A stretch of 64,000 nucleotides of DNA from the NCBI GenBank assembly GCA_035631875.1, contig DASQHX010000009.1, forward strand, positions 169,558-233,557. The letters are read 5' to 3'. Below, piece after piece: positions 996 through 19,708 of this stretch. A program made the position numbers and the translations under genes. The notes under the pieces were generated by a model. That model worked only from the letters and a program-made list of their open reading frames with translations. It had not been told where the DNA came from and ran no database searches. Source of the DNA: Nitrosopumilaceae archaeon. GTDB taxonomy: Archaea; Thermoproteota; Nitrososphaeria; Nitrososphaerales; Nitrosopumilaceae. Numbering within the stretch: position 1 is the first letter of the stretch; every line of letters starts with the position of its first letter.

Positions 996-2657
996 TTAAT
1001 TATTTGACGGCAGATTTAATTGAAGTTTTAATTCTTGTTTTGCCATACAGATATCACAGTATTTAGCCCATTTTTCACTATGATTCCATTGCTCCAATCC
1101 AGTTTGCTCGTATCTTTGGTGAGCCATTTGTAACATTCGTCTTGTATCATGTTTATACATGAATTGCTTCAATGCAAACAATTCTGGGATTGTAAAATAT
1201 TGGCTCACTGTGGCTGTATACTGTGTAGCATCTCCGCAATCTTGCATAAATTTATCCAGTGCCTGTAATTTCCATTTTGCAATTGTTTCTTTATCCACAT
1301 TAGAATTGTCTTTTGCCATCTTTAGCCTATCATCATATTGTTGTAGTAAGAATTCTTTGTTGTCATAGTATATCGGACTACCAACATATGGAGTACATAT
1401 GAATGGATTAATTTCTATATTATTTCGCATCCAAAACGTTACTGTTTCCATTAAATCGTTAATGTTTTCATGTGGATTTCCGATCATAAAAGTCGTAATG
1501 GGACGGAGTCCTACACTTTTCACAGTGTCGATTGTTTTTTGTAAATGTGTTTGCGTTTGGCCCTTTCCTATGTCTTGACTCAGGACTTTGTCCGAAGCAG
1601 ATTCGAATCCAAACGAAATAAAAGCACATCCAGCATCTTTCATGGTCTTCACAATAGTGGGCTGTACAGCAACACTAGGTGCATCACCTAATGTTCCCCA
1701 TTTGACTACTTCATTCAATCCCTCTTCTACGTACAGTTTGCAGAATTCCTTTGTCCATTTTAAATTGCTAGTCATATTCTCATCAACACAAAATACAAAA
1801 TCTACACCATATTTTTCTCGCAAAAACTTTATGTTCTCAACCGCATATCTTACTGTAGGCCATCTAGCAGGTAGTTGAAATGTGTCATTGTCTTTGTCAA
1901 CTTGCCTTACGATTTCTTCTCCCTTCTTTCTATCACCTGCTCCATAAATATTCTGTATATCAATACGTGACATTCCATTATGAGAGCAGAATGTACATCC
2001 CCTAGGGCAGCCTCTTTCCCAAACTACATTTACTCTCTTTTTAGAATTAAATGATTCTACTGACATCGGAAGAGATGAATATCTAAAATAAATATCCATT
2101 TCTAAGAGATGGTAAGCAGGATATGGAATTGTATCTAGATTAGAAATTAATGCTCGCGGTTGTGTAAACTTGATTTTTCCATTATTGTTTAAGCATAATC
2201 CTTTAACATTTTCGAAATTTCGAGTACCATGATTTATTTCATCATAAACTTCTGCAAAGGTTTCCTCCCCTTCTCCTACACATATCATATCAATATCTGG
2301 GACAAGTTGTAAAATTTCATCTGGATTATAAGTTGCCCAACCACCACCACTTATCAAAGTACAATCAGGACATGACTTTCGTATTATAGGTACTAATTGT
2401 TTGATACGGCGATATGCTGTAGTAAGACCACCTATTCCTATAAGATCCCATTTTGCAAGACCTATTTCCTCCTCAATTATTTTTGTAGGTACTAGTCTAC
2501 CATCATAATTCATTCTAAGTGCGTTTAAATCTAGAATTCCAACTTGAGCGCCTTTTTGTTCTGCAATTGCACCTAATATGCCAGCCCAAAACGGAATATC
2601 AAAAGGTTTGTCATCTAATCTCACTTCTGGTACTATTAATAGAACTTTCACACACAA
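996..2657 (-). CDS. Cobalamin-binding-type radical SAM enzyme, cassette copy 1
   Basis: The N-terminus (about residues 1-140) looks like a B12-binding Rossmann domain, with a GGGW...D...GEGEE pattern near 104-132. The radical SAM motif C217-x3-C221-x2-C224 follows. No clear DxHxxG cobalamin ligand is visible, so B12 binding is unproven. Residues 456-530 are identical to the paralogue at 20934-22589. The paralogue begins at the residue equivalent to codon 3 here, so a GTG at 2651 is a better start than the TTG at 2657. It is last gene of a four-gene cassette, 54 bases after the DUF115 gene. Such enzymes usually methylate or rearrange unactivated carbons; the substrate is unknown. Confidence 0.85.
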   Translation of the reverse strand: MCVKVLLIVPEVRLDDKPFDIPFWAGILGAIAEQKGAQVGILDLNALRMNYDGRLVPTKIIEEEIGLAKWDLIGIGGLTTAYRRIKQLVPIIRKSCPDCTLISGGGWATYNPDEILQLVPDIDMICVGEGEETFAEVYDEINHGTRNFENVKGLCLNNNGKIKFTQPRALISNLDTIPYPAYHLLEMDIYFRYSSLPMSVESFNSKKRVNVVWERGCPRGCTFCSHNGMSRIDIQNIYGAGDRKKGEEIVRQVDKDNDTFQLPARWPTVRYAVENIKFLREKYGVDFVFCVDENMTSNLKWTKEFCKLYVEEGLNEVVKWGTLGDAPSVAVQPTIVKTMKDAGCAFISFGFESASDKVLSQDIGKGQTQTHLQKTIDTVKSVGLRPITTFMIGNPHENINDLMETVTFWMRNNIEINPFICTPYVGSPIYYDNKEFLLQQYDDRLKMAKDNSNVDKETIAKWKLQALDKFMQDCGDATQYTATVSQYFTIPELFALKQFMYKHDTRRMLQMAHQRYEQTGLEQWNHSEKWAKYCDICMAKQELKLQLNLPSNN

Positions 2658-2711
2658 ACAGTTGCTAATTTCTTATTTAAACGAATCTGAGTAAATCATC
2701 TACAATTACAA

Positions 2712-3815
2712 TCATTTTTTGTACATATTGAGAAACTTGATCAAAGTTGTACATTTTATTCTCTCACCAAAGATTGATCCTCCTTCAGTAGCGTTAATAG
2801 TGTTAACCCATGACGGTGAACGCAAGATGAATTCTTTTAATGCTTTACTATAATATTGAAATATAGGATCTAAGATGCAAGTACAATCAAATTCTGGATT
2901 GTAAATTTTTGGAAATAATTGTTGAAATGCAGAACTGTTTTTATTCATTTGTACTAAAGGATGTGTATAACCATGTGTCATTATCAATTCCAGAGGATCG
3001 TCTTCATTCCATCCATGATTTATTCCAATGAGTGCAACTGTAGAACATTTTAAAATTTGCCAACTTACAAACCAAGATGAGGTTCCCACGTTTCCCCCAG
3101 TTTGTATTGCAGGCAAGCCATTAGGATGATTTTTTGCTCTTACCATTAATGCAGATATTTGATTAAATGATTTTTTGCCCTCGTCATAATCAAACAATGG
3201 GTGAAGCCAATGTATCTTTATTCCTGCTTGTCTTGCACGTTCAACAGTAGATGGTTTGATAACAGTTGAAAAAATTCCTTTTATTTTTGAGCCATATTTG
3301 TCTACTATTTTATCATCATAGTATTTTCTAATTTCATTTCGTGAGTCTATTGTAACAACATAAAAATTTGTAAACTTTTCAGGTGTAACTCCTGCATTTA
3401 AGGCAGTTATCAGTGCTCCATCACAGCAAACTATAGATCCCTGATAATCGCTATTCGCAAGCAATTCCAGATGATTGTATTTTTTTATTGAAGGACCGCG
3501 TCCTATTACTATAGCAGAATGTTCTTCTTTTTTGTAATTTGGATCTTTGGTAGGACCCAGTTCTTTTACAGATGATTCGTTCCAGATGTTATTCAGATTT
3601 ATAGAGAAATTTTTTACCCAATCGTCATAAAATTTATCATAGTAAACTTCCTCCCATTTTTTTTCTATTTCATCTTGTGTAGACTTTATAGAACTGGTAA
3701 AAAAATGATTGAACCATTCATCCCATCCTTTCTCACCAAAACCTGCCTTTTTCTTTAGAGACAATATCTTTTCTAGCGTACTTTCATTAATTGAAAATTC
3801 AACATCATCTGACAT
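2712..3815 (-). CDS. DUF115 (MptE/Maf-like) protein, cassette copy 1
   Basis: Residues 101-280 carry the DUF115/MptE-like signature: AIVIGRGPSI (101-110), a CCDGAL segment near 130, and TGGNVGTS (239-246) followed by ALIGINHGW. The family includes archaeal 6-hydroxymethylpterin diphosphokinase and the core of Maf flagellin nonulosonic-acid transferases. The first 95 residues form a separate, probably helical region with a GWDEWF motif. It sits 44 bases downstream of the 62-residue small-protein gene and just before the radical SAM gene, so co-transcription is likely. With nonulosonate genes nearby, a Maf-like glycosyltransferase role is attractive but unproven. A close paralogue lies at 22651-23757. 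Confidence 0.8.
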   Translation of the reverse strand: MSDDVEFSINESTLEKILSLKKKAGFGEKGWDEWFNHFFTSSIKSTQDEIEKKWEEVYYDKFYDDWVKNFSINLNNIWNESSVKELGPTKDPNYKKEEHSAIVIGRGPSIKKYNHLELLANSDYQGSIVCCDGALITALNAGVTPEKFTNFYVVTIDSRNEIRKYYDDKIVDKYGSKIKGIFSTVIKPSTVERARQAGIKIHWLHPLFDYDEGKKSFNQISALMVRAKNHPNGLPAIQTGGNVGTSSWFVSWQILKCSTVALIGINHGWNEDDPLELIMTHGYTHPLVQMNKNSSAFQQLFPKIYNPEFDCTCILDPIFQYYSKALKEFILRSPSWVNTINATEGGSIFGERIKCTTLIKFLNMYKK

Positions 3816-3859
3816 TTCTACACTAATTGATTTTAAATGATTTTAAATGGTTATTGGAT

Positions 3860-4048
3860 TTAGAGTTCCTCTAATCCAAGTTCGTTTTCTTTTTTAGTAG
3901 AACGAAAAATCATAAATGAACCAGATGCACCAGTTTTACTCATAAATTCTTCAAATTCTGATTCAGTAAAATCTTTTTTAGGATCATCATTATTTTGCAC
4001 ATCTTTTTTGATTTCATTATTTTTTTTAATATTAAAATTTGCCTTCAT
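3860..4048 (-). CDS. 62-residue conserved small protein, cassette copy 1 (possible modified peptide)
   Basis: This small, charged protein has no recognised domain. Against the 64-residue copy at 23804-23998, the first ten residues (MKANFNIKKN) and the end (ELGLEEL) are identical. A GSFM-x2-RS-x-KK core is shared and the Lys/Asn/Asp-rich middle varies. No signal peptide, membrane segment or cysteine is visible. A TATA-like element lies about 20 bases upstream of the ATG. It is the first gene of the tight small protein-DUF115-radical SAM group, a layout typical of a peptide and its modifying enzymes. Substrate, acceptor or adaptor are all possible roles. Confidence 0.8.
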   Translation of the reverse strand: MKANFNIKKNNEIKKDVQNNDDPKKDFTESEFEEFMSKTGASGSFMIFRSTKKENELGLEEL

Positions 4049-4062
4049 CTATAATAGATTGT

Positions 4063-4072
4063 CTTTATATGG
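4063..4072 (-). promoter_or_regulatory. Probable TATA box for cassette 1 small-protein gene
   Basis: The minus-strand reading is CCATATAAAG. It is centred about 20 bases upstream of the ATG at 4048, close to the spacing of leaderless thaumarchaeal genes. The second cassette has a TATA-like element in the equivalent place. Confidence 0.45.
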
Positions 4073-4182
4073 AATATTAAGTTTTAGTAGATGATTATAA
4101 TATGAATATTTTTCATGATAAAATTTGTATGCTGAATATGATATAAAATGAAATAGTTTGTAATTAGCAATATAAGATCATT

Positions 4183-4350
4183 CTAGTTAGTTTTTTTATT
4201 TCCTATTTGAATTTCGAGACATTGTGGACATATACAGTCTCCAGTATCTTTGTAATCCATTACAATTGGAGGTAGTTCATGACACCAACATGAGGAATTT
4301 GTCTTGCATGGAAATTTTTCTTTACATGATGGACAAATCTTAATTTTCAT
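4183..4350 (-). CDS. Cys-rich CWC small protein, cassette copy 1
   Basis: Translation from an ATG at 4350 gives 55 residues with CPSC at 6-9, C15, C21-W-C23, and a CICPQC cluster at 39-44. The Cys pattern and CWC triplet match the Cys_rich_CWC family, presumed zinc-binding and of unknown role. A second 55-residue protein with the same Cys layout precedes the second cassette, at 24087-24254, so the gene is real. The gap to the small-protein gene is about 135 bases, so it may have its own promoter. It could be a metal or partner protein for the radical SAM system; this is inference. Confidence 0.8.
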   Translation of the reverse strand: MKIKICPSCKEKFPCKTNSSCWCHELPPIVMDYKDTGDCICPQCLEIQIGNKKTN

Positions 4351-5445: not shown

Positions 5446-6630
5446 TTATGATTTATTGTTTTTAAAATAATTCAATGTTTTACTCATTACTTCCATCTGA
5501 ATTGCTCGCTCTTCTTCATTTTTCTGATTTGTTGTAAACAACATCAATTCTTTTTGAAGTGTTTCTGCTACTGGAACGTCACCATAACCAATTTTGTTAT
5601 CTCTAAAACATGGTTCATTTTTGACTAATTGATGTGCTGCGTAAATTCCATCTCCTCCAAATTTCATATACTTTTTCCTAAAATCATGCCATTTTATTCC
5701 ATAGTTTTGACCCATAAATCGTGCTGCAAATGTCCAATAGGTATTAATGAATCCTGATTGCACTTTTTGTGGTAATAACAATTCAGAATCTTTTATAATA
5801 GACAAATATCCTTCTGCCATTTTCATTCTCAGGTTAACAAATTCATCTATTCTTTCGCATTGTGCAAGACCAATTGCAGCACATAATTCTGGCATTCTGT
5901 AATTATAAGCCATCATGTTATGGCGTTCATAATTAGGATCTTGGAATTTGCTTCGATCTATTCTTACTTTACCTGTGGAGGCACCAATATTCTTGAATCC
6001 AACCCCGCCAAACTGCCTCATTTTTGTAGCTAAATCTTCGTCATCGGTAGTAACTATCCCACCATCACCTGTTGAAAGATGTTTTGAATTTTCAAAACTC
6101 CAACTTCCAACATGCCCAATTGTACCAGATTTTCTTCCTTTATCATCTCTTGCCAAAAGACATTCTGCACAATCTTCAATCACGAATAACCTGTGCTTAT
6201 TTGATAAATCCATAATCTTGTTCATATCGCACATATTTCCATACATATGAACTGGCATAATCGCCTTTGTTTTTTTAGTAATTTTTCTTTTTACATCTTC
6301 AGGATCCATCAAAAAAGTGTCACGTAAAACATCTGCATATACTGGTGTTGCGCCACATTGCCACACAGAAAAACCACACATTGCAACAGTAAGTGCTGGA
6401 ATAATGACTTCGTCACCTGGACCAACCCCAAATGCATTCAAAGCCATATGAAGAGTGGAGGTTCCAGAGTTTGCAGTAATGGCAAATTTTTTATTGTGTA
6501 TTTCAGCGAATTTTCTTTCTAGCCTCTCATTCATGGAACCTGATTCAGAAGCCCCAAAACCATTTTTTAGAACTTCATCCACGTATTTTCTTTCGTTACC
6601 ATTAAATTTCCAACCTTTATCTTTGATCAT
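5446..6630 (-). CDS. DegT/DnrJ/EryC1/StrS-family PLP aminotransferase
   Basis: The fold-type I sugar aminotransferase pattern is clear: SGTSTLHMAL (55-64), IEDCAE (151-156), and the PLP-binding lysine K183 in SKHLSTGDGG. These enzymes add an amino group to 3- or 4-keto nucleotide sugars. Length (394) is normal. Its ATG overlaps the stop of the cytidylyltransferase-like gene by four bases, implying coupled translation. With gmd just upstream in the same run, a GDP-4-keto-6-deoxymannose aminotransferase (perosamine-type) is one possibility. A nonulosonate-pathway transaminase is another. Confidence 0.85.
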   Translation of the reverse strand: MIKDKGWKFNGNERKYVDEVLKNGFGASESGSMNERLERKFAEIHNKKFAITANSGTSTLHMALNAFGVGPGDEVIIPALTVAMCGFSVWQCGATPVYADVLRDTFLMDPEDVKRKITKKTKAIMPVHMYGNMCDMNKIMDLSNKHRLFVIEDCAECLLARDDKGRKSGTIGHVGSWSFENSKHLSTGDGGIVTTDDEDLATKMRQFGGVGFKNIGASTGKVRIDRSKFQDPNYERHNMMAYNYRMPELCAAIGLAQCERIDEFVNLRMKMAEGYLSIIKDSELLLPQKVQSGFINTYWTFAARFMGQNYGIKWHDFRKKYMKFGGDGIYAAHQLVKNEPCFRDNKIGYGDVPVAETLQKELMLFTTNQKNEEERAIQMEVMSKTLNYFKNNKS

Positions 6631-7379
6631 TTTACACTCTCATTAAATTTTGCTTGATTTTTAAGGAAATCTTGTTGTCGATGAAAGTTTATTTCTGAAA
6701 TAGATTTATTTTTTTCCAAGTAATCAATTATACCTTTACCGCTTTCTAGAATATCTACATTTTCATATAATTTTCTAAAAAATGCCAGATCTTCTTCATA
6801 ATCTAATGTAAGTCGGATATTTTTATTACATTCATAATCTTTCAACTCAATTTCAGAAATTGGTAGATTGGCTTTTTCAATATATTTTATAATAACATCA
6901 GTATTAATCTCATCATTTGGTGCAACATTATACAGTTTAATAATCGCATTACGACTCATCGCATAGGTAAAAAAACCAGTAACGATGTTTTCTGGATTAC
7001 CAACAATATCTAATTTATTGGATTTTAGTTTTAACATTGCACGTAAACCAATATCATAATTACTTGACAAATCATCTCCATCAAGTAAAAGAGCATACTC
7101 TACACTAAATTTGCTAAAACAGTCATACCATCGTTTTAGTTTATTTAGTAAAGAACCTCTGAAAATTTGTACATTGTGTTGTTTAGCAACCTCCTCAAAA
7201 ATATCATCACTTACAGCAGTTGAAGTTGCGATTATTACAGGAAAATCTGTTTTTTTTGCTCTTTCAATAACAATATCAATAGAACGCAAATCTCTTTTGA
7301 TTTTCATAATTGCTTTATTAGGAAGTCGTGAGGAGGAATTACGCACTGTTACAATTGCCGCATCTTTTATGACCATCAT
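6627..7379 (-). CDS. SpsF/NeuA-like nucleotidyltransferase
   Basis: The N-terminus has R13-x4-RLPNK (18-22), the signature of the cytidylyltransferase/SpsF family, which activates sugars as CMP or similar nucleotides. DGDDLSS further on is a plausible metal-binding site. The family often sits in spore-coat and nonulosonate clusters next to NeuB-type synthases, as here. It overlaps the following aminotransferase by four bases and lies 13 bases after gmd. There are two adjacent ATGs at the start. The nucleotide and sugar specificity are not readable. Confidence 0.75.
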   Translation of the reverse strand: MMVIKDAAIVTVRNSSSRLPNKAIMKIKRDLRSIDIVIERAKKTDFPVIIATSTAVSDDIFEEVAKQHNVQIFRGSLLNKLKRWYDCFSKFSVEYALLLDGDDLSSNYDIGLRAMLKLKSNKLDIVGNPENIVTGFFTYAMSRNAIIKLYNVAPNDEINTDVIIKYIEKANLPISEIELKDYECNKNIRLTLDYEEDLAFFRKLYENVDILESGKGIIDYLEKNKSISEINFHRQQDFLKNQAKFNESVK

Positions 7380-7392
7380 AGCATCATTTGAA

Positions 7393-8382
7393 TTATTTGT
7401 TATTTAACGAATCCATTCTTAATTTATAATAATTAATATCATGTTCAACCATAGTTTTTACTAATTCTTTAAAACTTAGTTTTGGTTTCCATCCTAATTC
7501 TTTCTTAGCTTTAGATGCATCGCCCACTAATTCTTCAATATCGGCAGGCCTCTTGATTGATTCATCGATCTCAACAAAATCATTCCAATCTCCCAATCCG
7601 CTATATTCAGCCGCCAAAGTAAGAAATTCTTCTAGCGAATGTGATTCTCCAGTTGCAATTACATAATCATCTGGAGTTGGTTTTTGTAGCATCAACCACA
7701 TTGCCTCTACATAATCTCCTGCAAATCCCCAATCTCGTTTTACATGTATATTTCCTAAATGAAGTTTTTGTGTTTTTTTAAATTTTATTGCAGCAAAAGT
7801 GCTAGATATTTTTCTTGTTACAAATTCTAATCCTCTTAATGGAGATTCATGATTAAAAAGAATCCCACAACATGCAAAAATATTGTACGCATCTCTATAA
7901 TTAACAGTCATATGATGTGCAAAAACTTTTGCAGCTCCATATGGACTCCTTGGTTTAAAAGGCGAGCTTTCATTTTTTATTCCGGGATAATTGCCATACA
8001 TCTCACTAGTTGAAGCTTGATAGAATTTAGCATGTGGCGCATATTCTTTTATTGCCTCAAGAACGCGTATTACTCCAATACCTGTAACATCTGCCGTAAG
8101 AATTGGTTGTTGAAATGAGGCAGTAACAAATGACTGAGCTGCCAGATTATAGATTTCATCTGGTTGAGATTGTTTAATTGCTTGTTGAATAGAGAGTTGA
8201 TCTGTGAGATCAGCTTTAACTGTGGTTATTTTTTCAAATGTGTCCATCTCTTCTAATCTTTCAAATAATTTGTGACTTGTTCTTCTAAAAGTACCATAAA
8301 CATTGTATTTTTTCTTCAAAAGAAAATCAACCAGATAGGAACCGTCTTGTCCTGTAACTCCAAAAATTAATGCATTTTTCAT
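7393..8382 (-). CDS. gmd: GDP-mannose 4,6-dehydratase
   Basis: This extended SDR has the NADP-binding GVTGQDGSYL (8-17) followed by the RRTS typical of Gmd. The catalytic motif STSEMYGN and YGAAK complete the active site. It converts GDP-mannose to GDP-4-keto-6-deoxymannose, the precursor of fucose, perosamine, rhamnose and colitose. Length (329) is near normal. It overlaps the upstream TIM-barrel gene by four bases and feeds a run that includes an aminotransferase. A His-type dehydratase and a GDP-fucose-synthase-like reductase about 31 kb away could use the same product. Confidence 0.88.
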   Translation of the reverse strand: MKNALIFGVTGQDGSYLVDFLLKKKYNVYGTFRRTSHKLFERLEEMDTFEKITTVKADLTDQLSIQQAIKQSQPDEIYNLAAQSFVTASFQQPILTADVTGIGVIRVLEAIKEYAPHAKFYQASTSEMYGNYPGIKNESSPFKPRSPYGAAKVFAHHMTVNYRDAYNIFACCGILFNHESPLRGLEFVTRKISSTFAAIKFKKTQKLHLGNIHVKRDWGFAGDYVEAMWLMLQKPTPDDYVIATGESHSLEEFLTLAAEYSGLGDWNDFVEIDESIKRPADIEELVGDASKAKKELGWKPKLSFKELVKTMVEHDINYYKLRMDSLNNK

Positions 8383-9200
8383 CCTACAACCAATCCATTT
8401 TCAATCACCTTATCTAAAAACTCTTTAAAACCTGCTCCACCATGTTCATGGCCTTTCCATACTTCGATTGCAAAGCTAGTGTTTTTGTATTTATTTAAGA
8501 TCGGTATTATTTTTTCGAATGGTAAATCACCTTCACCAAACTGCAATCCTTCACCATCTATTCCTCCAGCATCTGATAAATGATAATGATCTACATAGTT
8601 TTCTATTTTTTGTAATTCGTCCACTAATGATAATTTTTTTGTGTTACAATAAAGTTGAGAATGACACAAGTCAAAACATACACGTAGTCCTGTTTCTTTA
8701 CAGTAATTTACCATTTCCGAGGCATCAAGAAATACATTGCTATTCCATCTGCCACCAAAAAACCAAGCATAAGGAGGCATGTTTTCTAAAAGAAAGTTCA
8801 CATTTTTTATATCTAGGTATTTTACTGCATCTACTAGTTTATCTTTCATTTTTTGAATCACAGAGGGATTTAGTTCATTTAATGAATAACCGCCAGGATG
8901 AATTATTATTGTAGGTTTACCTTTAAAGTGTTCATTAAAAGAAATTGTTTTATCAATAGCTTTTTGAATTAATTCTAGTGTTTTTTCTTGTGAGTGAATT
9001 TGATTGGTTTCTTCTAAACTCACAATGTCCAACAATTTTCTGTTAAAATATTCATAACAATGCACTATTAATTGCTGGTCAAAATTTCTATCTATATTCA
9101 GATTTAAATCACTATCAGAAAAATGAAATTCAAGTGTTTTAGGATTAAATTTTAACATATCATCTAGATCATGTTTTCTTACTTTCATGCCTAGAATCAT
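8379..9200 (-). CDS. Sugar phosphate isomerase/epimerase-like TIM-barrel protein
   Basis: The 273 residues resemble the xylose isomerase-like TIM-barrel/AP endonuclease 2 superfamily. Putative metal ligands appear in IIIHPGG, LLENMPP, CFDLCHSQ, DHYHLSD and FAIEVWKGHE along the barrel strands. The reaction is unknown; relatives isomerise or epimerise sugars. The gene overlaps both neighbours, NeuB-type synthase and gmd, by four bases each. This implies a tightly coupled operon and a job in the same sugar pathway. Confidence 0.75.
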   Translation of the reverse strand: MILGMKVRKHDLDDMLKFNPKTLEFHFSDSDLNLNIDRNFDQQLIVHCYEYFNRKLLDIVSLEETNQIHSQEKTLELIQKAIDKTISFNEHFKGKPTIIIHPGGYSLNELNPSVIQKMKDKLVDAVKYLDIKNVNFLLENMPPYAWFFGGRWNSNVFLDASEMVNYCKETGLRVCFDLCHSQLYCNTKKLSLVDELQKIENYVDHYHLSDAGGIDGEGLQFGEGDLPFEKIIPILNKYKNTSFAIEVWKGHEHGGAGFKEFLDKVIENGLVVG

Positions 9201-10252
9201 TTTAGATCTACTGGTAACAGATATTGCCCCTTTTTTATATTTCTGGTTGATTTTTTTCCAATTATATCATAATAGTATTGTGGTGAAAGTCCTTTTGCTG
9301 GTCCTTTGATTTCTACATTTTGTTCTGAAAAAATATCTCCTTCATGTATATCCAGTGAACAAATGATGCTTTTACCAAGTACCTCACGTTGCAGAATTTC
9401 TCCTCTAGTCATTTTCTTTATTGATTCACCTTTTGCCTTTTCGGATTCTCTAATGTATTGTACAAGATTTTTAAATTCGTCTGGTTCTAATGATGCAGCT
9501 TGGTCTATTCCTTCCATAGTTTTATCCAAGGTAATATGACGTTCAATCAATACAGATTCCATATTTGCGGCTGCTAGAGAGGGAATAATTCCAGGTTCAT
9601 GCCCACTATAGCCAATTGGAACATCAAATTTTGTTCTTAAAAGTGGGATTAGATTGAGATTAAGTAATTCGACTGGAGAAGGGTAAGTACTATTACAATG
9701 CAACAAAATAAAAGGAATGTTTTCTTTTTTTACAAAATTGACTGTTTTTTCAATTTCCTCAAGTGTTGACATCCCCGTAGAAATAATTAGTGGTTTTTTT
9801 GCTTTTGCAACGTAGTGTATTAATGGTAAATTTGTCATGTCAGCTGATGCAATCTTGTAAGCTGGAACATTAAATTTTTCAAGAAAATCTACACTGTGAG
9901 TATCCCAAGGTGTACACAAAAAAGGAATTTCTTTCTTCTTACAATATTCAATTATTTCTTGATATTCCGATTCATTAAATTCAACTTCCTTTAAAACGTT
10001 AATTAATATCTCAAGTCCTTGGCTATCCAAATTTGGGTTTTCTAAAACATCATTTTTATAGATACTTTCTAAAGATCTTTTTTGGAATTTTACTGCGTCA
10101 GCACCAGCTTCTACTGCAACATCAATCAGTTTTTTTGCTAGAGGTACTTGACCATTATGATTTATTCCAATTTCTGCAATTACATAACATGGCTCTCCAA
10201 TACCCACTAACTTATCTCCAATTCTAATTTTATTTTTGTAACTGTATTCCAA
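9197..10252 (-). CDS. neuB: NeuB-type nonulosonic acid synthase with SAF domain
   Basis: The N-terminal TIM barrel carries AEIGINHNG (26-34) and KFQKR (55-59), hallmarks of sialic/legionaminic/pseudaminic acid synthases. These condense phosphoenolpyruvate with a six-carbon amino sugar. The C-terminal 60 residues form the antifreeze-like SAF domain, so the enzyme is full length at 351. The start is TTG. It is first in a chain of overlapping genes reaching to 5446. A second, shorter NeuB homologue lies at 15382. The exact nine-carbon product cannot be told from sequence alone. Confidence 0.9.
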   Translation of the reverse strand: MEYSYKNKIRIGDKLVGIGEPCYVIAEIGINHNGQVPLAKKLIDVAVEAGADAVKFQKRSLESIYKNDVLENPNLDSQGLEILINVLKEVEFNESEYQEIIEYCKKKEIPFLCTPWDTHSVDFLEKFNVPAYKIASADMTNLPLIHYVAKAKKPLIISTGMSTLEEIEKTVNFVKKENIPFILLHCNSTYPSPVELLNLNLIPLLRTKFDVPIGYSGHEPGIIPSLAAANMESVLIERHITLDKTMEGIDQAASLEPDEFKNLVQYIRESEKAKGESIKKMTRGEILQREVLGKSIICSLDIHEGDIFSEQNVEIKGPAKGLSPQYYYDIIGKKSTRNIKKGQYLLPVDLK

Positions 10253-10384
10253 TCCTTAATCACTACAGAGAGACTTGTTTTTGTTTGTTTGCCATTCTAC
10301 CATAGATTATGCAACTATTTTCCTTTTTTTATAATTGCTTTATTTGAAAGTCATACGTGTAAGATTTGAAAAGACGTAGCAATT

Positions 10385-11068
10385 TTACCATATAGAATAA
10401 CCACCGTCTACAACAATTGCTGCACCTGTAACATAGCTAGATTTTTCACTGCATAGATAATCAGTCAAGTCATTCAACTCATTCTTTCTCATCATACGTG
10501 ACATGGGAGTCAATTCTGAGTATTTTTTAACAAATTTACTGCTTTGATTTAGGAAAGTCCCACCTGGTACAAGACAATTTACTCGTATATTTGGTGCAAA
10601 ATGAACAGCTAGATATTTTGTAAGATGTATTACACCAGCTTTGGATACACAGTAGCCGATATCCTTGTGTGAGCCCTCATACATATCAGGTCTTGAGGAA
10701 ACTATTCCCAAATATGATGAAAAATTAACAATTGCTCCTGTTTTATTATTTCTTGCAAATTCTCTGCAAACAGAAAATAGTGCTGTCAAGTTAACTTCCA
10801 TATAATTGGAAAATGATTCTAATGGAATATCAAATACAGTTCTTTTTTTCCTTTCAGCATTTACATGATCGTTTAATGCAAAACAATTTATCAAATAATT
10901 TGCATGGTTATTCTTAAACCATTTTTTTACAAATTTTTCATCAGTCAGATCATGTCCTAATTCAAGATCTAATTTGTAAATTTTATTGTCCTTTTCAAAA
11001 AACTTACAAATTTCAGATCCTAGAAGACCTTCAGAACCAGTAATTATTATTTTTCTCATCACATACAC
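10385..11068 (-). CDS. Short-chain dehydrogenase/reductase
   Basis: A classical SDR, with TGSEGLLGSE (10-19) for NAD(P) binding, an NFSSYLG strand holding the catalytic Ser, YCVSK as Y-x3-K, and a GAAIVVDGGYSIW ending typical of the family. Similar SDRs, called PtmA-like, occur in flagellin nonulosonate clusters. The gene may start at the GTG (11068) or at an ATG nine bases in. It is close in layout to the SDR at 16840-17661, which also ends in a VDGG-W motif. Substrate unknown; probably a sugar intermediate. Confidence 0.85.
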   Translation of the reverse strand: MYVMRKIIITGSEGLLGSEICKFFEKDNKIYKLDLELGHDLTDEKFVKKWFKNNHANYLINCFALNDHVNAERKKRTVFDIPLESFSNYMEVNLTALFSVCREFARNNKTGAIVNFSSYLGIVSSRPDMYEGSHKDIGYCVSKAGVIHLTKYLAVHFAPNIRVNCLVPGGTFLNQSSKFVKKYSELTPMSRMMRKNELNDLTDYLCSEKSSYVTGAAIVVDGGYSIW

Positions 11069-11080
11069 TCAACTCTTTGT

Positions 11081-12454: not shown

Positions 12455-12862
12455 TCATATAATTTTTATCTTAGATTTGAATTTTGCAGGAACGCCAATC
12501 CATAATTCATTTTTTGGGATATTTTTATTAACAAATGAGTATGCACCGACAATGGAATTTTCTCCAATTATTACATTAGGCATTATAGTACTATGGGTAC
12601 CAATTTTACAGTTATTCTTTAAAACAATTCTTCCATGTTTTTTATCAATGGTAGAATTAGAATAAATTGAACAATGAGAACCAATTTGAACATTGTTACC
12701 GATTTCAACTCCGTATTGACTGTTTATGTAAGTAAATGTGCCAATGTCAAAATTCTTACCAAGTATCAGTTTTTCTGGATATTGAACTATGTAATTATAT
12801 TTGGTTAGTTTGCTATGCTTAATGATCGGTTTTTGCCATTTTCTTTGTTGGTTTTTTTTCAT
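12455..12862 (-). CDS. Left-handed beta-helix (hexapeptide) acyltransferase
   Basis: Most of the 135 residues are imperfect hexapeptide repeats (I/V-G-x-x-x-x), as in ...IGNNVQIGSHCSI and IGTHSTIMPNVIIGENSIVG. An N-terminal strand region leads in. Such proteins are trimeric O- or N-acetyltransferases using acyl-CoA, and NeuD/LegH-like members acetylate nonulosonate precursors. It sits six bases after the NeuC-type epimerase gene, supporting a shared operon and pathway. The small size suggests a minimal catalytic unit. Acyl donor and acceptor are not readable. Confidence 0.8.
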   Translation of the reverse strand: MKKNQQRKWQKPIIKHSKLTKYNYIVQYPEKLILGKNFDIGTFTYINSQYGVEIGNNVQIGSHCSIYSNSTIDKKHGRIVLKNNCKIGTHSTIMPNVIIGENSIVGAYSFVNKNIPKNELWIGVPAKFKSKIKII

Positions 12863-12868
12863 TTGTTA

Positions 12869-14020
12869 TCAATATGATAATTGTTTCTGGATTAAATTCT
12901 TATTCAAATCAAGTTTTTCAAGGAGACTTGTAATTTTCTTTGAAGCATTGCCAGTTCCATAAATATAGTTGTCAATTGAGTTTATAGTTTTTCTTGATTT
13001 TAATGCTTTTGATATTGTCCGATAAATCGTTTTTACTGCCGTATCTTTTATGTCAAATACGTTTTTACTCCTCTCTCTACCTTCTTGACGTGTTCCAATA
13101 TTAATAACAGGGATATGAAAATAGCCAGCTTCTATCATGCCACTACTTGAATTACCAACTAATACACCACAATTTTCTAGCATTCCAAGATAGTCATTTC
13201 TTGGCATAGATCTATACATTTTGATAAAAGGGTATTTTCTAGAAAATAATTTCAAGGTTTCAAAAATCTTGTTGTTCCCAGCATCTGAGTTTGGTCCAAT
13301 TGCAATAGTTATTCTTTTTGTCTTGACAATAGCATTAAGTATAGTTCGAATTTGTTTTTCAGCAAGCTCAGTTTGTGTAGTAACCGGATGTTGTAATAAT
13401 AAAATTTCCTTTCCAGTAAACTTTATCCCATATTTTTTCTCCAGATTACTTTTACTAGTGATCTGTTTATTTGCAATTTCATCCACAGTAGGAGAACCAG
13501 TGAAAAAAACATATCGTGGATTTTCCCCCATTTTTATTATCCGTTCTTTACTTTTTTTAGTTGCTGCAAAATGAATATTTGATATTTTTGTAATAGCGTG
13601 ACGATTGTATTCATCAATACCGCCAGATTTATCCCCTCCATGTATGTGCGCATTAGGAATATTCATGTGATAGGCGGCAATAGATGATGCCAACATTTCG
13701 TCTCTGTCACCTAATATCAGATTAATATCAGGTCGTACTTTGTTAAGAATTTTGGAAAATTCGATGATTCCTCTTCCTACTGCTTCTGACATAAAATATG
13801 TGGTATCTCCTTTTGGAATCATATCAACGGTAGCAAAAATTTTGAACCCATCTTTTTTAATTTCATTAATTGTTAACCCATGTTTTTTAGATAAATGCAT
13901 GCCTGTAACTATTAAGTATAGATCTAATTTTTTACTTTTCAATATAGCATGTAAAATTGGGCGCAATATTCCATATTCTGCCCTTGTTCCAGTTGTGACT
14001 AAAATTTTTCTTTTTTTCAT
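12869..14020 (-). CDS. neuC: NeuC/LegG-type UDP-N-acetylglucosamine 2-epimerase (hydrolysing)
   Basis: TTGTRAEYGILRPIL near residue 9 is the family N-terminal signature. HIHGGDKSGG, GSPTVDEI and NSSSGMIEAG are further conserved blocks of the two-domain epimerase fold. The hydrolysing members release ManNAc or its diacetamido analogue (LegG) from UDP, giving the six-carbon substrate of NeuB. Length (383) is as expected. The order amidotransferase (upstream), epimerase, acyltransferase is typical of legionaminic-type clusters. Which hexose it acts on is not determined. Confidence 0.88.
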   Translation of the reverse strand: MKKRKILVTTGTRAEYGILRPILHAILKSKKLDLYLIVTGMHLSKKHGLTINEIKKDGFKIFATVDMIPKGDTTYFMSEAVGRGIIEFSKILNKVRPDINLILGDRDEMLASSIAAYHMNIPNAHIHGGDKSGGIDEYNRHAITKISNIHFAATKKSKERIIKMGENPRYVFFTGSPTVDEIANKQITSKSNLEKKYGIKFTGKEILLLQHPVTTQTELAEKQIRTILNAIVKTKRITIAIGPNSDAGNNKIFETLKLFSRKYPFIKMYRSMPRNDYLGMLENCGVLVGNSSSGMIEAGYFHIPVINIGTRQEGRERSKNVFDIKDTAVKTIYRTISKALKSRKTINSIDNYIYGTGNASKKITSLLEKLDLNKNLIQKQLSY

Positions 14021-14064
14021 TTATAATGATATAAACAAGTTTTCATAATATTAGGTTTAATTTG

Positions 14065-15189
14065 TTATTTTATTAATCCCGTTCCCACTTTAAATTTGGG
14101 GTGCCACACTCCATCCCTATCTTGCTCAAAGAAATCATGATTATACCATTTGTCCATAATTTTCCAAAATTCTCTAGTTGATATTCCCACAAATTCACAA
14201 AATTTATCTAAAATTCCCTGATCTAATTTTTTATCAAATTCTTCAACAACAGGGATCATTTCTTCTCTGGTTTTTAATCCATATCTTATCCAACGGGAAG
14301 CATTATCGGTAGCTACGGAATGGGCAAATTTAAGGTACTTCAGATAAGGATTCAATAAATATGACAATGAGTCTATTTGGTCATAATTATCAATTGAGCC
14401 TTCTCTTTCATATTCATGTCCAAGGTGTCTAAAACCCCAACGTTTTGCTACTTCATAATTATGTACAGAATTCCAAGGCACAAAATAACTTAAATAAATT
14501 GGATTTAATCCAAATTTTTCGCATTCTTCAACTGATGGAGGAATAGTAGATGCCAAGTCCTTTTCTGATATTTGATTATCTTCAAGCCATTTTTTTGGAA
14601 AAGGTCTAACAACATCATTTGATGGTTGTAACATTGCAGATGGTGTTTCTGTATTATACTTACCACCATAAGTATAGTTTACATCTTCACCATATACTAA
14701 CAATTTCACACCTAGCTGTATTGCCATGCGATAAGGAAATGCGTAGATTAATGAATCAACATACCAAGATGGCTGACCAAATTCCTCAAATGCTTTTCTA
14801 GTTAATATTCTAGTAATGTGCCTATTGGGTTGTAATACAATTATTTCACATCCAAATACATCAGAAATATTATCGAGGTTTTTTCTTCCTGTTTCAGTCC
14901 AATCTGTATTTCCAACTGTGAGAAGAACCGGATTCATTTTCATCACCTCTTTCATAATATAAATTTGAAAGTGAGAGTCCTTTCCTCCAGAAACTGCAAT
15001 AGCACAGTCATATCCATTACCGTTACTTCCCCTATACTTATCACATAGAGTTCTAAGTTCTTTTAGTCTATTATTCCAATCAGTTGTTTTTTGTTTTTCA
15101 AAATTAATACATGCAATACAAATACCATTCTCATCAAATTTAAGTCCAGGTCTTGTATTTGGCATAAGACATTTTTTACAATATTTCAT
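14065..15189 (-). CDS. N-acetyl sugar amidotransferase (WbpG/LegA/PseA-like)
   Basis: The N-terminus has two CxxC pairs (C4/C7 and C24/C27) and the text CLMPNTRPG, diagnostic for the WbpG family. The ATP PP-loop SGGKDS lies at 67-72. These enzymes use ammonia, usually from HisH/HisF-like partners, to convert acetamido groups of sugars to acetamidino groups. No glutaminase partner is visible in the window. A TATA-like element lies about 26 bases upstream. It is the first gene of the amidotransferase-NeuC-acyltransferase run. It implies acetamidino-decorated nonulosonate or uronate sugars. Confidence 0.88.
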   Translation of the reverse strand: MKYCKKCLMPNTRPGLKFDENGICIACINFEKQKTTDWNNRLKELRTLCDKYRGSNGNGYDCAIAVSGGKDSHFQIYIMKEVMKMNPVLLTVGNTDWTETGRKNLDNISDVFGCEIIVLQPNRHITRILTRKAFEEFGQPSWYVDSLIYAFPYRMAIQLGVKLLVYGEDVNYTYGGKYNTETPSAMLQPSNDVVRPFPKKWLEDNQISEKDLASTIPPSVEECEKFGLNPIYLSYFVPWNSVHNYEVAKRWGFRHLGHEYEREGSIDNYDQIDSLSYLLNPYLKYLKFAHSVATDNASRWIRYGLKTREEMIPVVEEFDKKLDQGILDKFCEFVGISTREFWKIMDKWYNHDFFEQDRDGVWHPKFKVGTGLIK

Positions 15190-15210
15190 TTTACTCAGTT
15201 TTGTATTTCA

Positions 15211-15221
15211 ACATATATATC
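15211..15221 (-). promoter_or_regulatory. Probable TATA box for the amidotransferase operon
   Basis: The minus-strand reading contains ATATATATG, centred about 26 bases upstream of the ATG at 15189. This spacing fits a leaderless archaeal transcript starting the amidotransferase-NeuC run. It lies in the divergent gap facing the second NeuB gene. Confidence 0.45.
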
Positions 15222-15381
15222 GATTTCACTGTATATGGCATAAGAGCAATTATCATAACAATTGCACTATTAATTAGTATACAAATTAGAGATATATTTA
15301 TGAGACAAAACACAACTATAATGCTTAATTCATGGTTTGATTTCTTCTAGCTATGTCATATGACCAAAAAGTGAATGAAAT

Positions 15382-16080
15382 ATGATTTTTTTAGTGGCTG
15401 AAATTGGTGTTAATTGGGACGGAGATTTAGATCTAGCAAATGAAATGATGTTAAATGCAAAAAAAACTGGTTTTGATGCAGTAAAATTCCAAGCATTTAA
15501 TGAAAGCATAGTTAAGAATCATCCAGAAAATTCTCGTTTAATTAAAACTTCAATTTCTAAAAAAAACATAGAACAAATTGATAAATTATCAAAATCTATT
15601 GGAATAGAGTGGTTTTGTACTCCCATGTATGCCGAAGCTGTAGATCTATTAGATCCCTTTGTTAAAAGATTCAAAATTAGAGAGAGTGATAGTAGACCTA
15701 TATTAAAAAATGAAACAACCTCCTTGTTCGAAAGAGTATTGAAAACGAATAAGGAAATAATCATGAGTAGTAATGCATCACCACGTACTAGCAAATATTT
15801 TAAAAATTCTCAAATAAAATGGCTTTATTGCGTTCCTAAATACCCTTGTGAATTAAATGAATTAGATTTCACAGATTTTAGAGATTTTCATGGTTTTTCA
15901 AATCATTCTCCTAGTATCATAGCACCAGTAACTGCAGCTATCTTAGGCGCAAAAATAATAGAGGTACACATTACATCTGATAAATCAAAGAATTTCTTTG
16001 ATAATAATGTGAGTTTTAATTATTCTGAACTTGAAGAACTAGTTTCATTAATTCGTCTTTCTGAGAAAATAAAAAAATAA
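15382..16080 (+). CDS. Short NeuB-type synthase lacking the SAF domain
   Basis: AEIGVNWDG (6-14) and KFQAF match the NeuB barrel, and the sequence continues through NHSPSI and EVHIT towards the barrel end. At 232 residues it is about 100 shorter than the synthase at 9197 and has no C-terminal antifreeze-like domain. That domain normally caps the active site in the dimer, so activity and partner use are uncertain. A NeuA-type gene follows 39 bases later on the same strand. The pair may make and activate a second nonulosonic acid, or a related 2-keto sugar acid. Confidence 0.82.
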   Translation: MIFLVAEIGVNWDGDLDLANEMMLNAKKTGFDAVKFQAFNESIVKNHPENSRLIKTSISKKNIEQIDKLSKSIGIEWFCTPMYAEAVDLLDPFVKRFKIRESDSRPILKNETTSLFERVLKTNKEIIMSSNASPRTSKYFKNSQIKWLYCVPKYPCELNELDFTDFRDFHGFSNHSPSIIAPVTAAILGAKIIEVHITSDKSKNFFDNNVSFNYSELEELVSLIRLSEKIKK

Positions 16081-16119
16081 TTCGAATAGATATATTAGAT
16101 TCGGATTGAAATTCCATAC

Positions 16120-16815
16120 ATGAAACCCATCTGTTTTATAGGTGCCAGAGGAGGATCAAAAGGAGTACCAAGAAAGAACATAAGAAAATTAGCTGGAAAA
16201 CCACTCATAGCGTACACGATAGAAAGTGCTCTTGATTCAGATCTCTTTAGTAGTGTAATTGTCTCTACGGAAGATAATAAAATTGCTTCCATAGCAAAAA
16301 AATATGGTGCTGAAATACCGTTTATTCGCCCAAAAAAACTCGCTAGTGATACATCTGGAATGTATGAGGTCATAATTCATGCAATAGAAAAATTACGTTA
16401 CTTGGGATATGAATTTGACATTATGATAAATCGAGATTGTACTGTGCCGTTCATCAGAAATATTGACATCCGAGGGTCTATTGAATTATTAAAAAGAAAA
16501 AGATGTGACATGGTTTGTGGAGTTTATAGACAACATCACAATCCCTATTTCAATATGATGGAAGTAAATTCTAATGGTTTTTTGAAATTTAGTAAAAAAA
16601 AGAGCAGGAGGATTAAAAACAGACAAGATGCACCAATCGTCTATCAACTAAATGGTTTATTCACATTTTATGTTGAAAAATTGTTAAAATACAAAAGATT
16701 CTATATGCCGCATACACTTCCTTATGAAATTCTTCCTCCTACTGGTTTAATGATAGATACAGAATTTGAATTTCAGATAGCGGAAATGATAGCAAAAAAT
16801 AAAATTAAAATTTAA
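16120..16815 (+). CDS. neuA: NeuA-type acylneuraminate cytidylyltransferase
   Basis: The signature GARGGSKGVPRKN (8-20), then LAGKPLIAYTIE, is that of CMP-sialic/legionaminic/pseudaminic acid synthetases. RDCTVPF and a late TGLMIDTEFE block are also typical. It transfers CMP from CTP to the nonulosonic acid, making the donor for glycosyltransferases. Length (231) is normal for a single-domain form. It follows the short NeuB gene in an apparent two-gene operon. T-rich DNA separates its end from the convergent SDR gene. Confidence 0.9.
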   Translation: MKPICFIGARGGSKGVPRKNIRKLAGKPLIAYTIESALDSDLFSSVIVSTEDNKIASIAKKYGAEIPFIRPKKLASDTSGMYEVIIHAIEKLRYLGYEFDIMINRDCTVPFIRNIDIRGSIELLKRKRCDMVCGVYRQHHNPYFNMMEVNSNGFLKFSKKKSRRIKNRQDAPIVYQLNGLFTFYVEKLLKYKRFYMPHTLPYEILPPTGLMIDTEFEFQIAEMIAKNKIKI

Positions 16816-16839
16816 ATTTTTTTTATTGAATTTTTGGTA

Positions 16840-17661
16840 TTACCATGCAGTCCAACCACCATCAACTATCACATTAGTACCAGTAACATAAGAAGAAGCA
16901 TCAGATGCCAAAAATAACAATGGCCCATCATAATCTTCTTTGCATGCCATTCTTCCAAGCATTGTTTTTTCTGAGTATCTCTTAACAAAATTTTTGTCTT
17001 TGTGCAGCTTTGGATCAAAAACGCCACCAAGTGTAAGAGTGTTTATTCGAATGTTTTGTCTATGCCAATATGCAGCAAGGTAACGAGTAAGGTTTACCAT
17101 GGCGCCTTTTGTCGCAGCATAAAAAGCTGGTGAATTCAGTCTACTTTTTCCATAAATCCTTTGATCAGCACCAGTAATGCCATATATTGAAGAGATATTC
17201 ACAATTACTCCTTTTTTTTGCTTAGACATCACTTTACCAATTTCTTGGCAGCATAAGAAAAGGCCTCTCAAATTCGTAGTAATTGTTTTATCCCATAATT
17301 CCAAAGGATATTTTTCAAAAGGTGCATCTCTTTGTGGATGATCTCGTGGAATAAAATGTGCATTATTAACCAAAATATCAATTTTTTTGTATTTTGCTAA
17401 AACATCTTTTGTTAGTGTTTTCATGTCAGATTGCTTACTTATGTCTAGATCAAACGCAATTGGATGTGTATGATATTTTTTAGCTAAATCCTCTTCTAGG
17501 TTTTTATTTTGTTTATTTTTTATATCCACCAAAACAACATTTGCACCAGCTTCACTTAACACATGTGCAAATCGAGTTCCTAAACGTCCTGCTGAACCAG
17601 TGAGAATGATAGTCTTATTTTTTAAATTAAATAATCTATTAATAGAATTTTCTTTTTTCAA
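16840..17661 (-). CDS. Short-chain dehydrogenase/reductase
   Basis: A classical SDR with LTGSAGRLGTR for cofactor binding, NNAH, VNISSIYG with the catalytic Ser, FYAATK as Y-x3-K, and a TNVIVDGGWTAW ending. The start is TTG and overlaps the stop of the Gfo/Idh gene by four bases, so the two are likely translated together. Pairs of SDR and Gfo/Idh oxidoreductases are frequent in nonulosonate (Ptm/Leg-type) clusters. The substrate is probably an amino- or keto-sugar but cannot be read. Confidence 0.85.
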   Translation of the reverse strand: MKKENSINRLFNLKNKTIILTGSAGRLGTRFAHVLSEAGANVVLVDIKNKQNKNLEEDLAKKYHTHPIAFDLDISKQSDMKTLTKDVLAKYKKIDILVNNAHFIPRDHPQRDAPFEKYPLELWDKTITTNLRGLFLCCQEIGKVMSKQKKGVIVNISSIYGITGADQRIYGKSRLNSPAFYAATKGAMVNLTRYLAAYWHRQNIRINTLTLGGVFDPKLHKDKNFVKRYSEKTMLGRMACKEDYDGPLLFLASDASSYVTGTNVIVDGGWTAW

Positions 17662-18644
17662 TTTATTGTTATCACCTTCTTAATTTTTGAAGATTTCTTT
17701 ATTGCCAAGGCAATTTTCAATACTCGAAAACCTTCCTCAATACTATTAATGGTTTTTTGTTTTGTTTTAATAGATTTTAGAAAATGAGACAATTCTTCAA
17801 TGTACATATCATTGTTATTATAATTTTGTAATTTCAACTTTTCAATCCATTTTTTTCTTTTTACATTATACATTTTAACTGTATTAGTATCTAAATCCCA
17901 ATAAATTGTCCCATCTGTTCCTAATATCTTACAACTTCTAACAGGTGGACTCTGAAAATAATCTAGGTGTATTTCAGCTATAATGTTATTTTGAAATCTT
18001 AACAAGGCAGCTGATAAGTCTTCTGCAGATATTTTTAGATCACTGAATTTTCCAGTAATAGAAAAAACTTCTTTAACATTACCAAAAAACCAATACAGAT
18101 AGTCTATTTCATGTATACATGTCAATACTACTCCACCACCTAATTCTTCACGTGATGCATAGCTATTTGGATATTTTTCATATGGATGCCAATTAGGAAG
18201 AAATGAGCCATTCTCTACACGAACAGAGATTATTCTTCCTATTTCATTATTAGAAATAATTTTTTTTATTGCCTTTATACATGGGTGGAAACGAAAATTA
18301 CATCCCATTAATGTTACGAGTTTTCTTTTTTTTACTAATTTTAACAAAGTTTCAACTCTTTCTATTGAGTTAGAAAGAGGTTTTTCTATGAACAAATTAA
18401 TTCCAGCATTTGCCAATTTTATTGCGATCTTAACATGAAGACTGGTTACATTGGCCAGTATTGCAATATGTGGATTTTCGTTAAGACAGTCTTCTAAAGA
18501 ATGGAGTATTTTACATTTTTTTCTTCGTAAAAAGCTATCATACTTACGCCTAGTGTAAACTAAAATTTCTACATCTGGAAAAGATGATAGATTATCAATA
18601 TGACGTTTTCCAATAGAGCCATAACCTACAACAAGTGCTTTCAA
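17658..18644 (-). CDS. Gfo/Idh/MocA-family oxidoreductase
   Basis: GYGSIGKRH (8-16) is the Rossmann motif, and FIEKPLS holds the conserved EKP of the family. GGGVVLTCIHEIDYL in the C-terminal alpha/beta domain has the usual H/D positions near the active site. The family oxidises or reduces sugars and nucleotide sugars with NAD(P). Length (328) is normal and the start is TTG. It overlaps the downstream SDR by four bases. It faces the PseB-like gene across a 164-base divergent gap. Substrate not determined. Confidence 0.85.
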   Translation of the reverse strand: MKALVVGYGSIGKRHIDNLSSFPDVEILVYTRRKYDSFLRRKKCKILHSLEDCLNENPHIAILANVTSLHVKIAIKLANAGINLFIEKPLSNSIERVETLLKLVKKRKLVTLMGCNFRFHPCIKAIKKIISNNEIGRIISVRVENGSFLPNWHPYEKYPNSYASREELGGGVVLTCIHEIDYLYWFFGNVKEVFSITGKFSDLKISAEDLSAALLRFQNNIIAEIHLDYFQSPPVRSCKILGTDGTIYWDLDTNTVKMYNVKRKKWIEKLKLQNYNNNDMYIEELSHFLKSIKTKQKTINSIEEGFRVLKIALAIKKSSKIKKVITIN

Positions 18645-18808
18645 ACATCTTTCAAGTAAATAACAAGGATATTAGTTTTCAAATTCTAAAGTATTTGGTT
18701 TCTCATATCTTAATTACAATTGGAATGATAAAATTATCATTAAAATAAACAGGAAAAGTTATTATCTAATCCATTTTATAGGTAGCTGCGAAAGAATTAA
18801 AATGATTT

Positions 18809-19705
18809 TTGCACGATGTTATGACCAACAAAGACAAAATGACTAAATTGAACCCAATCCTCACTAAAGAATTAAAAAATAAAATAATTTTGATTACTGG
18901 TGGAGCTGGTAGTGTAGGTGCAGTTTTAGTAAAAAGTGTCCTAGAATATCCAATTAAATCTGTAAGAGTGTTAGATATAGATGAACATGCTTTATTTAGA
19001 TTAAATCGTTCTGTAAAAGATGCTAGATTAAGATTATTGCTAGGTAGTATAACAGACAAGGAACGAATTGAAATGGCAGGCAATAAAGCAGACATAGTTT
19101 TCCACTTGGCAGCAATAAAAAACATTGAAATTTCTGAATTCAATCCCATAGAGACCATTGATACCAACATTAATGGAACTATCAACATGATTAAAATGTC
19201 AATACGAAATAAACCAAAAAAATTCTTAAACATAAGTACTGACAAAGCAGCTGATGCCTCAACTTTATATGGAACCACAAAACAAATTGGTGAAAGACTG
19301 ACAAGTTGGGCTGGTGTTCATATAAGCCCAACCAAATTTGCCTCAGTGCGTTTTGGCAATGTAATTGAAACAAGAGGAAATGTGTTTGAAATTTGGGATG
19401 AAGAATTAAAAAATAATAAACCGCTTTCAATAACTGACATAACAATGGAAAGATATTTTTTTCACGTAAATGATGCTGTTAATTTTATTTTAGAATGTTT
19501 ACCACTAGTTAATCAAGGGGAAATCTTTGTTCCAAAAATGAAATCTCATAAAATTAAGGATCTTGCCATGAAACTTTCAAAAAAACATAAAATAATTGGA
19601 TTACGACAAGGAGAAAAAGTAGAAGAAGTTCTCATAACAAAGACTGAAAAAAAAATAGCTGAAGAAAAAAAGAATATGTGGATTATAAAGCAATATTCTT
19701 CATAA
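18809..19705 (+). CDS. PseB/CapD-like UDP-N-acetylhexosamine 4,6-dehydratase
   Basis: TGGAGSVGAVLV binds NAD(P), STDKAAD gives the T/S-D-K element of the PseB/CapD group, and YGTTK is the catalytic Y-x3-K. These enzymes make a 4-keto-6-deoxy UDP-sugar, the first step of pseudaminic- or bacillosamine-type synthesis. At 298 residues it is a short form. The gene may start at the TTG (18809) or the ATG at 18821. Its product would suit the aminotransferase encoded convergently at 19709-20881. Assignment to pseudaminic versus other routes is uncertain. Confidence 0.8.
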   Translation: MHDVMTNKDKMTKLNPILTKELKNKIILITGGAGSVGAVLVKSVLEYPIKSVRVLDIDEHALFRLNRSVKDARLRLLLGSITDKERIEMAGNKADIVFHLAAIKNIEISEFNPIETIDTNINGTINMIKMSIRNKPKKFLNISTDKAADASTLYGTTKQIGERLTSWAGVHISPTKFASVRFGNVIETRGNVFEIWDEELKNNKPLSITDITMERYFFHVNDAVNFILECLPLVNQGEIFVPKMKSHKIKDLAMKLSKKHKIIGLRQGEKVEEVLITKTEKKIAEEKKNMWIIKQYSS

Positions 19706-19708
19706 AAT

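Follow-up and report, generated by a model that had tools for sequence, protein, structure and literature searches.

A three-gene unit of a small protein, a Maf-like DUF115 protein and a B12-binding radical SAM enzyme in thaumarchaeal nonulosonate islands, tentatively assigned to peptide modification

Among the closest described systems are the Maf enzymes, which O-glycosylate serine and threonine residues of flagellin with nonulosonic acids (nonulosonates, NulOs) and whose glycosites follow no sequon but are located in low-complexity regions or close to hydrophobic residues (PMC11339370). For the archaeon Nitrosotalea, it has been proposed that the S-layer is modified with NulO (PMC4836417), and the glycobiology of ammonia-oxidising archaea is largely unexplored (PMC12153357). 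The window analysed in this study is a stretch of 64,000 nucleotides from the genome of a Nitrosopumilaceae archaeon (assembly GCA_035631875.1, contig DASQHX010000009.1, positions 169,558 to 233,557 of the forward strand). It carries two copies of a gene set that specifies a small protein of about 62 amino acids (SP), a protein of the DUF115 family (PF01973) and a radical SAM enzyme with a B12-binding domain (rSAM). The comparative analysis of related genomes revealed that these three genes, referred to as the triad, represent a functional unit associated with NulO genes, and the predicted properties of the deduced proteins are consistent with a module for the modification of SP.

A preliminary description of this DNA had located the same four genes, in common order and orientation, at positions 996-4350 and 20934-24254 of the window, and this arrangement was confirmed. 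Both copies, designated A and B, are encoded on the minus strand and are transcribed in the order CWC-like protein, SP, DUF115 protein and rSAM. The individual features are as follows:

4183..4350 (-), copy A: CWC-like cysteine-rich protein of 55 amino acids, an occasional neighbour and not a core gene (PF14375, 23.1 bits, cut-off 24)
3860..4048 (-), copy A: SP of 62 amino acids, the proposed substrate or partner peptide (open reading frame, conserved in 16 loci)
2712..3815 (-), copy A: Maf-like DUF115 protein of 367 amino acids (PF01973, E 7.6e-12)
996..2657 (-), copy A: B12-binding radical SAM enzyme of 553 amino acids (PF02310 and PF04055 over the cut-offs)
24087..24254 (-), copy B: CWC-like protein of 55 amino acids, not a core gene (PF14375, 19.0 bits, cut-off 24)
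23804..23998 (-), copy B: SP of 64 amino acids (open reading frame)
22651..23757 (-), copy B: Maf-like DUF115 protein of 368 amino acids (PF01973, E 6.4e-14)
20934..22589 (-), copy B: B12-binding radical SAM enzyme of 551 amino acids (B12-binding and Radical_SAM domains over the cut-offs)

The functional unit comprises three of these genes, namely those encoding SP, the DUF115 protein and rSAM, and not all four. Profiles of the three proteins were searched against 398 genomes of the phylum with thresholds of 1e-10 for DUF115 and 1e-90 for rSAM, and the three proteins were found in an identical set of six genomes, all SP matches beyond these six having E values above 0.04. Screening 250 genomes of the family with the SP profile revealed a clear SP in 15, 14 of which contain an intact triad; the number of triad loci is 15, as the genome of the window (G000) carries two. 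One of the organisms with a triad is Ca. Nitrosopumilus salaria BD31. The lone SP of the fifteenth genome, G001, was considered as a counter-example to the linkage and dismissed, since the contig ends 55 bp beyond the SP stop codon and cuts the triad; together with this locus, an intact SP is present in 16 loci. The gene order SP-DUF115-rSAM was observed in 11 of the 15 loci and the order DUF115-rSAM-SP in two (L032 and L072). In L008, the rSAM gene lies upstream of SP-DUF115 at a distance of 2.5 kb, and the order in L033 is rSAM-SP-DUF115 with an antisense CWC gene in between. Since the linkage survives reordering into four gene orders, the three proteins apparently act jointly.

The CWC-like gene adjoins five triads, with eight cysteine residues invariant across the five respective proteins, and was found in 18 of 101 relatives, most of which have no triad. 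Since so many relatives carry this gene separately, a four-gene unit was ruled out and the inclusion of CWC in the set, as assumed in the preliminary description, was not borne out. Separate occurrence in related genomes thus applies to CWC, whereas the SP, DUF115 and rSAM genes are not carried separately in the sampled genomes. The more general claim of a recurring functional unit, in which a Maf-like protein and a radical SAM enzyme are grouped around a tiny protein in the vicinity of NulO genes, was substantiated in many genomes. CWC-like proteins constitute a family that is widespread in triad-less relatives (loci L056-L063).

The triad was not found outside the thaumarchaea. Searches of viral contigs and plasmids yielded no relative of the DUF115 protein, and the rSAM relatives on plasmids showed at most 26% identity among the matches listed. 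Only distant relatives of the DUF115 protein (24-31% identity) were detected in bacteria; these are encoded in deltaproteobacterial metagenome-assembled genomes without SP or this type of rSAM.

SP is an acidic, cysteine-free protein without a match in Pfam or a convincing one in NCBIfam. It is composed of an N-terminal KxNF motif, a variable linker and a conserved C-terminal half (GSFMIFRS...ELGLEEL in copy A), and a comparison of 14 sequences revealed the invariant residues K2, N4, F5, E31, E33, G40, G43, S44, M46, R49, E56 and E61. The rate of non-synonymous substitutions (dN, 0.07-0.30) was well below that of synonymous substitutions (dS, 0.8-3.7) in all tested pairs, with dN/dS ratios of about 0.05-0.21 that are rough values, as the high dS values are saturated. 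This substitution pattern indicates that SP is a real gene under purifying selection and, together with the intact state of SP in 16 loci, goes far beyond what chance would produce. According to structure prediction, the protein is mostly disordered with a single helix at residues 29-39 (mean predicted local distance difference test, pLDDT, of 61).

The loci L025 and L027 contain a second SP-type gene upstream of SP and one enzyme pair each. These additional genes (L025:9780-9932 and L027:9923-10075) have the ends WNLWSIRSSKNLHN and MNVWTYRSKSGLNIK and retain the KxNF motif and the arginine. The two SP-type genes of L027 are identical over approximately 95 bp, from about 35 nucleotides before the start codon through codon 20, and encode divergent cores past this point (GSFMVFRN... 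versus MNVWTYRS...). The combination of a shared leader with different cores at one enzyme pair is suggestive of precursor paralogues.

The DUF115 protein showed the closest resemblance to Maf. PF01973 matched all 14 members of the family (best E 1.6e-22), and the flagellin modification model PseD was the only NCBIfam match for 11 of the 14, with scores under the cut-off; the copy B protein, for instance, gave E 4.7e-7 with FlagModPseD. The predicted model of the copy A protein (pLDDT 79.5) retrieved the Maf protein of Magnetospirillum (5mu5) as best fold in the PDB with E 8.1e-9 and a template modelling (TM) score of 0.48 over the query, the 267 aligned columns covering part of Maf only. The second solved fold was MptE (8sd5, E 1.8e-5), which is also the sole significant sequence match of the DUF115 protein in the PDB. 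Because a length of 367 or 368 residues is much shorter than the 632 residues of Maf 5mu5 and falls short of the full three-domain Maf, the modelled DUF115 protein is best regarded as Maf-like rather than as a full Maf. The SP segment GS[FYH]M[VI][FY]RS would fit the surroundings that are known from Maf glycosites. The MptE-like label of the Pfam domain and the match to 8sd5 could also point to a pyrophosphokinase of pterin synthesis that resides in the neighbourhood only incidentally. Such a role is highly improbable, since the protein occurs in only six of the 398 genomes of the phylum, unlike a general cofactor enzyme, and is always accompanied by SP and rSAM in glycan islands; moreover, Maf provided the better fold match and NCBIfam matched PseD only.

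The rSAM proteins contain the B12-binding domain PF02310 and the Radical_SAM domain PF04055, both over the Pfam cut-offs, and the cysteine residues 217, 221 and 224 of the CxxxCxxC motif are invariant in 14 sequences. With respect to copy A, the alignment suggests a possible GTG start two codons downstream of the annotated one. Among solved structures, the closest relatives of rSAM are CysS and TokK, two B12-dependent methyltransferases, and no named family of NCBIfam was reached, the best match scoring 118 bits versus a cut-off of 481 for BchE. Judged by this kinship, C-methylation is the likeliest reaction of rSAM, although BchE-like relatives perform other chemistry. In L035, the triad and NeuB have an additional neighbour at 5283-6785, a remotely related B12 radical SAM gene with about 24% identity.

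The genomes that harbour the triad are also equipped with NulO genes. NeuB was detected in 14 of the 15 SP-bearing genomes, with the exception of G001, versus 25 of 101 relatives. Within 9 kb of the triad, NeuB was found in 10 of 14 loci and CTP_transf_3 in 8 of 14, several of the other loci terminating at contig ends. In the window, the two copies adjoin the following gene sets:

5446..11068 (-), NulO-type set beside copy A: DegT aminotransferase, CTP_transf_3, GDP-mannose-dehydratase-like protein, TIM barrel protein, NeuB with SAF domain, and SDR protein
12455..20881 (.), NulO-type set beside copy B: hexapeptide protein, NeuC, WbuX, short NeuB, and PseF-, PseB- and PseC-like proteins

The region 5446-20881 accordingly appears as one island with two separate nonulosonate-type sets that also includes NeuC and the amidotransferase WbuX. 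The triads of L025 and L027 are accompanied by counterparts of most copy A set members (61-77% identity), and those of L006 and L028 have homologues of four copy B set members on their flanks, namely the PseC-like protein, NeuC, short NeuB and the hexapeptide protein. Since the two copies adjoin different NulO sets, each of which recurs beside triads elsewhere, each copy apparently has a sugar of its own. Three further observations were made in the vicinity of these genes. A 265-residue protein without Pfam match (73-870 of the window) is kept beside the NeuC and short-NeuB set in L006 (72%) and L028, and a multi-spanning membrane protein of 489 residues (26769-28238) resembles MBOAT O-acyltransferases by eye, which is unusual enough in an archaeal glycan island to be recorded. 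In addition, genes for an eIF2B/MtnA-like isomerase and a DUF59-like protein, both named by eye, recur near the triads of L007, L028, L032, L033 and L035 and suggest that glycan islands share a chromosomal hotspot.

Archaellin (PF01917) was not detected in the genome of the window, which is 99.99% complete, nor in G004 and G049; G032, G210 and G318 do possess it. Because three host genomes yielded no archaellin, glycosylation of this protein is disfavoured as a general role of the triad, and the target might rather be SP or another protein, such as that of the S-layer. The triad is embedded in extensive surface-glycan islands that contain further transferases, which would also be compatible with a function in which the DUF115 protein transfers NulO to a lipid-linked or surface polysaccharide, rSAM alters the sugar, for example by methylation, and SP regulates or stabilises the two enzymes; the nearest NCBIfam matches of rSAM, which include many small-molecule enzymes such as BchE, are in line with this view. 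We consider it unlikely, as it leaves unexplained why SP is kept as faithfully as the enzymes and why it was duplicated with a diverged core, and the PF01973 enzymes of the Maf type that use NulO act on protein (PMC11339370).

We tentatively propose, with a probability of roughly 0.4, that the triad is a peptide-modification module whose two enzymes, a Maf-like NulO transferase and a radical SAM enzyme with a B12-binding domain, are dedicated to SP as their substrate. SP would be recognised via the N-terminal KxNF motif, which is followed by the variable, disordered linker and a C-terminal core with the invariant residues S44, which is surrounded by hydrophobic residues, and R49. The DUF115 protein would attach a NulO, supplied as CMP-sugar by the products of the neighbouring genes, to a serine residue of SP, most plausibly S44, and rSAM would in addition modify either the SP core or the attached sugar, most likely by C-methylation. 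This proposal draws on the linkage through four gene orders, the Maf fold, the NulO genes, the undetected archaellin, the predicted disorder of SP and the gene pair of L027. It could be extended to the view, which is rather doubtful, that SP gives rise to ribosomal peptides of a new class, which carry a sialic-acid-like sugar placed by a short Maf-type enzyme together with a B12-rSAM modification, the two copies of the window giving rise to two nonulosonate versions.

Several observations weigh against SP being a modified substrate. The pattern of leader and core is clean in L027 only, where it could have originated from a recent partial gene conversion, and the pair of L025 is weak and much more diverged. 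In the loci other than L025 and L027, both ends of SP are conserved, and since the core varies little from genome to genome, in contrast to many cores of ribosomally synthesised and post-translationally modified peptides (RiPPs), SP could be a structural partner. The coincidence of the three proteins in six genomes does not equal six independent events, because linked genes are inherited together. Pfam reported no leader-binding domain in the enzymes, although no search was aimed at such domains, and no recurring peptidase or transporter family was recognised within 9 kb of the triad in 14 loci. An exported peptide would usually need a peptidase or a transporter, and the missing recurrence of such genes is the chief weakness of the assumption that the product is secreted.

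The high conservation of the C-terminal half of SP, as would be expected of a binding peptide, and the shortness of the DUF115 protein (367 versus 632 residues in Maf 5mu5, with 267 aligned columns) argue for SP as a non-catalytic adaptor or chaperone that the short transferase needs to bind its true acceptor, for example an S-layer protein or a pilin, with rSAM modifying the acceptor or the sugar. The S-layer modification proposed for Nitrosotalea (PMC4836417) would agree with such an acceptor. We regard the adaptor function as somewhat unlikely, since the two SPs per enzyme pair in L025 and L027, with shared leader and divergent core in L027, suit substrates better and no other candidate acceptor gene recurs beside the triad.

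The sequences of the two copies further provided information on their history. Copies A and B share 75% identity in rSAM, 78% in the DUF115 protein, about 60% in SP and 31% in the CWC-like protein. The two copies are sisters in the DUF115 tree (support 96/97), whereas in the rSAM tree they are not, copy B joining the rSAM proteins of Nitrosopumilus (93/99). These discordant trees ruled out a plain duplication of the cassette, as had been assumed in the preliminary description. The rSAM genes have a near-identical 3' tract in common, located at about 1121-1301 and 21059-21239 of the window, which includes an exact run of 68 bp and is represented by two 90-bp bins with identities of 0.89 and 0.96, the remainder of the gene being at about 0.67-0.80. 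This tract is likely due to gene conversion, and we read the two copies as having a mosaic history with some gene conversion rather than as the outcome of a single recent duplication.

Known Maf enzymes act on flagellin, and a Maf-like enzyme in hosts without detectable archaellin would imply a new use of nonulosonic acids. If the proposed role of the triad is correct, ammonia-oxidising archaea possess a new protein or peptide target of glycosylation, and the compact size of the triad, with three genes in about 3 kb, means that it can be reconstituted. Searches of the open-licence literature yielded nothing on this gene set, on nonulosonate RiPPs or on Maf with precursor peptides, an absence that does not amount to proof.

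A comparison with known systems revealed partial similarities to four groups. The triad DUF115 protein shares with MptE, the archaeal 6-hydroxymethyl-7,8-dihydropterin pyrophosphokinase, the Pfam domain and a related fold, but it is longer, patchily distributed and encoded in glycan islands. The enzymes CysS and TokK as well as the BchE-like group of NCBIfam resemble rSAM in the B12-binding and radical SAM domains and in the CxxxCxxC motif, CysS and TokK being the nearest solved relatives, whereas rSAM scores far under all cut-offs of named families and has a C-terminal region of its own. As in radical SAM RiPP systems, a small encoded protein is tied to dedicated enzymes, and the shared leader and diverged core of L027 might conform to this scheme; the triad differs in that it comprises no peptidase, exporter or recognised leader-binding domain, includes a Maf-like transferase and has an SP core that is conserved across genomes. 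The Maf systems, represented by Maf of M. magneticum (5mu5), CbMaf of C. botulinum and PseD, correspond to the triad in PF01973, in the best fold and in the genetic link to NeuB and a cytidylyltransferase. They differ in the length of the protein (632 versus 367 residues) and in that some triad hosts have no detected archaellin; furthermore, the triad DUF115 protein always occurs together with SP and rSAM, an association that was encountered in no described Maf system. The triad most likely serves to modify SP, or another protein with the aid of SP, in a manner that appears to be new.

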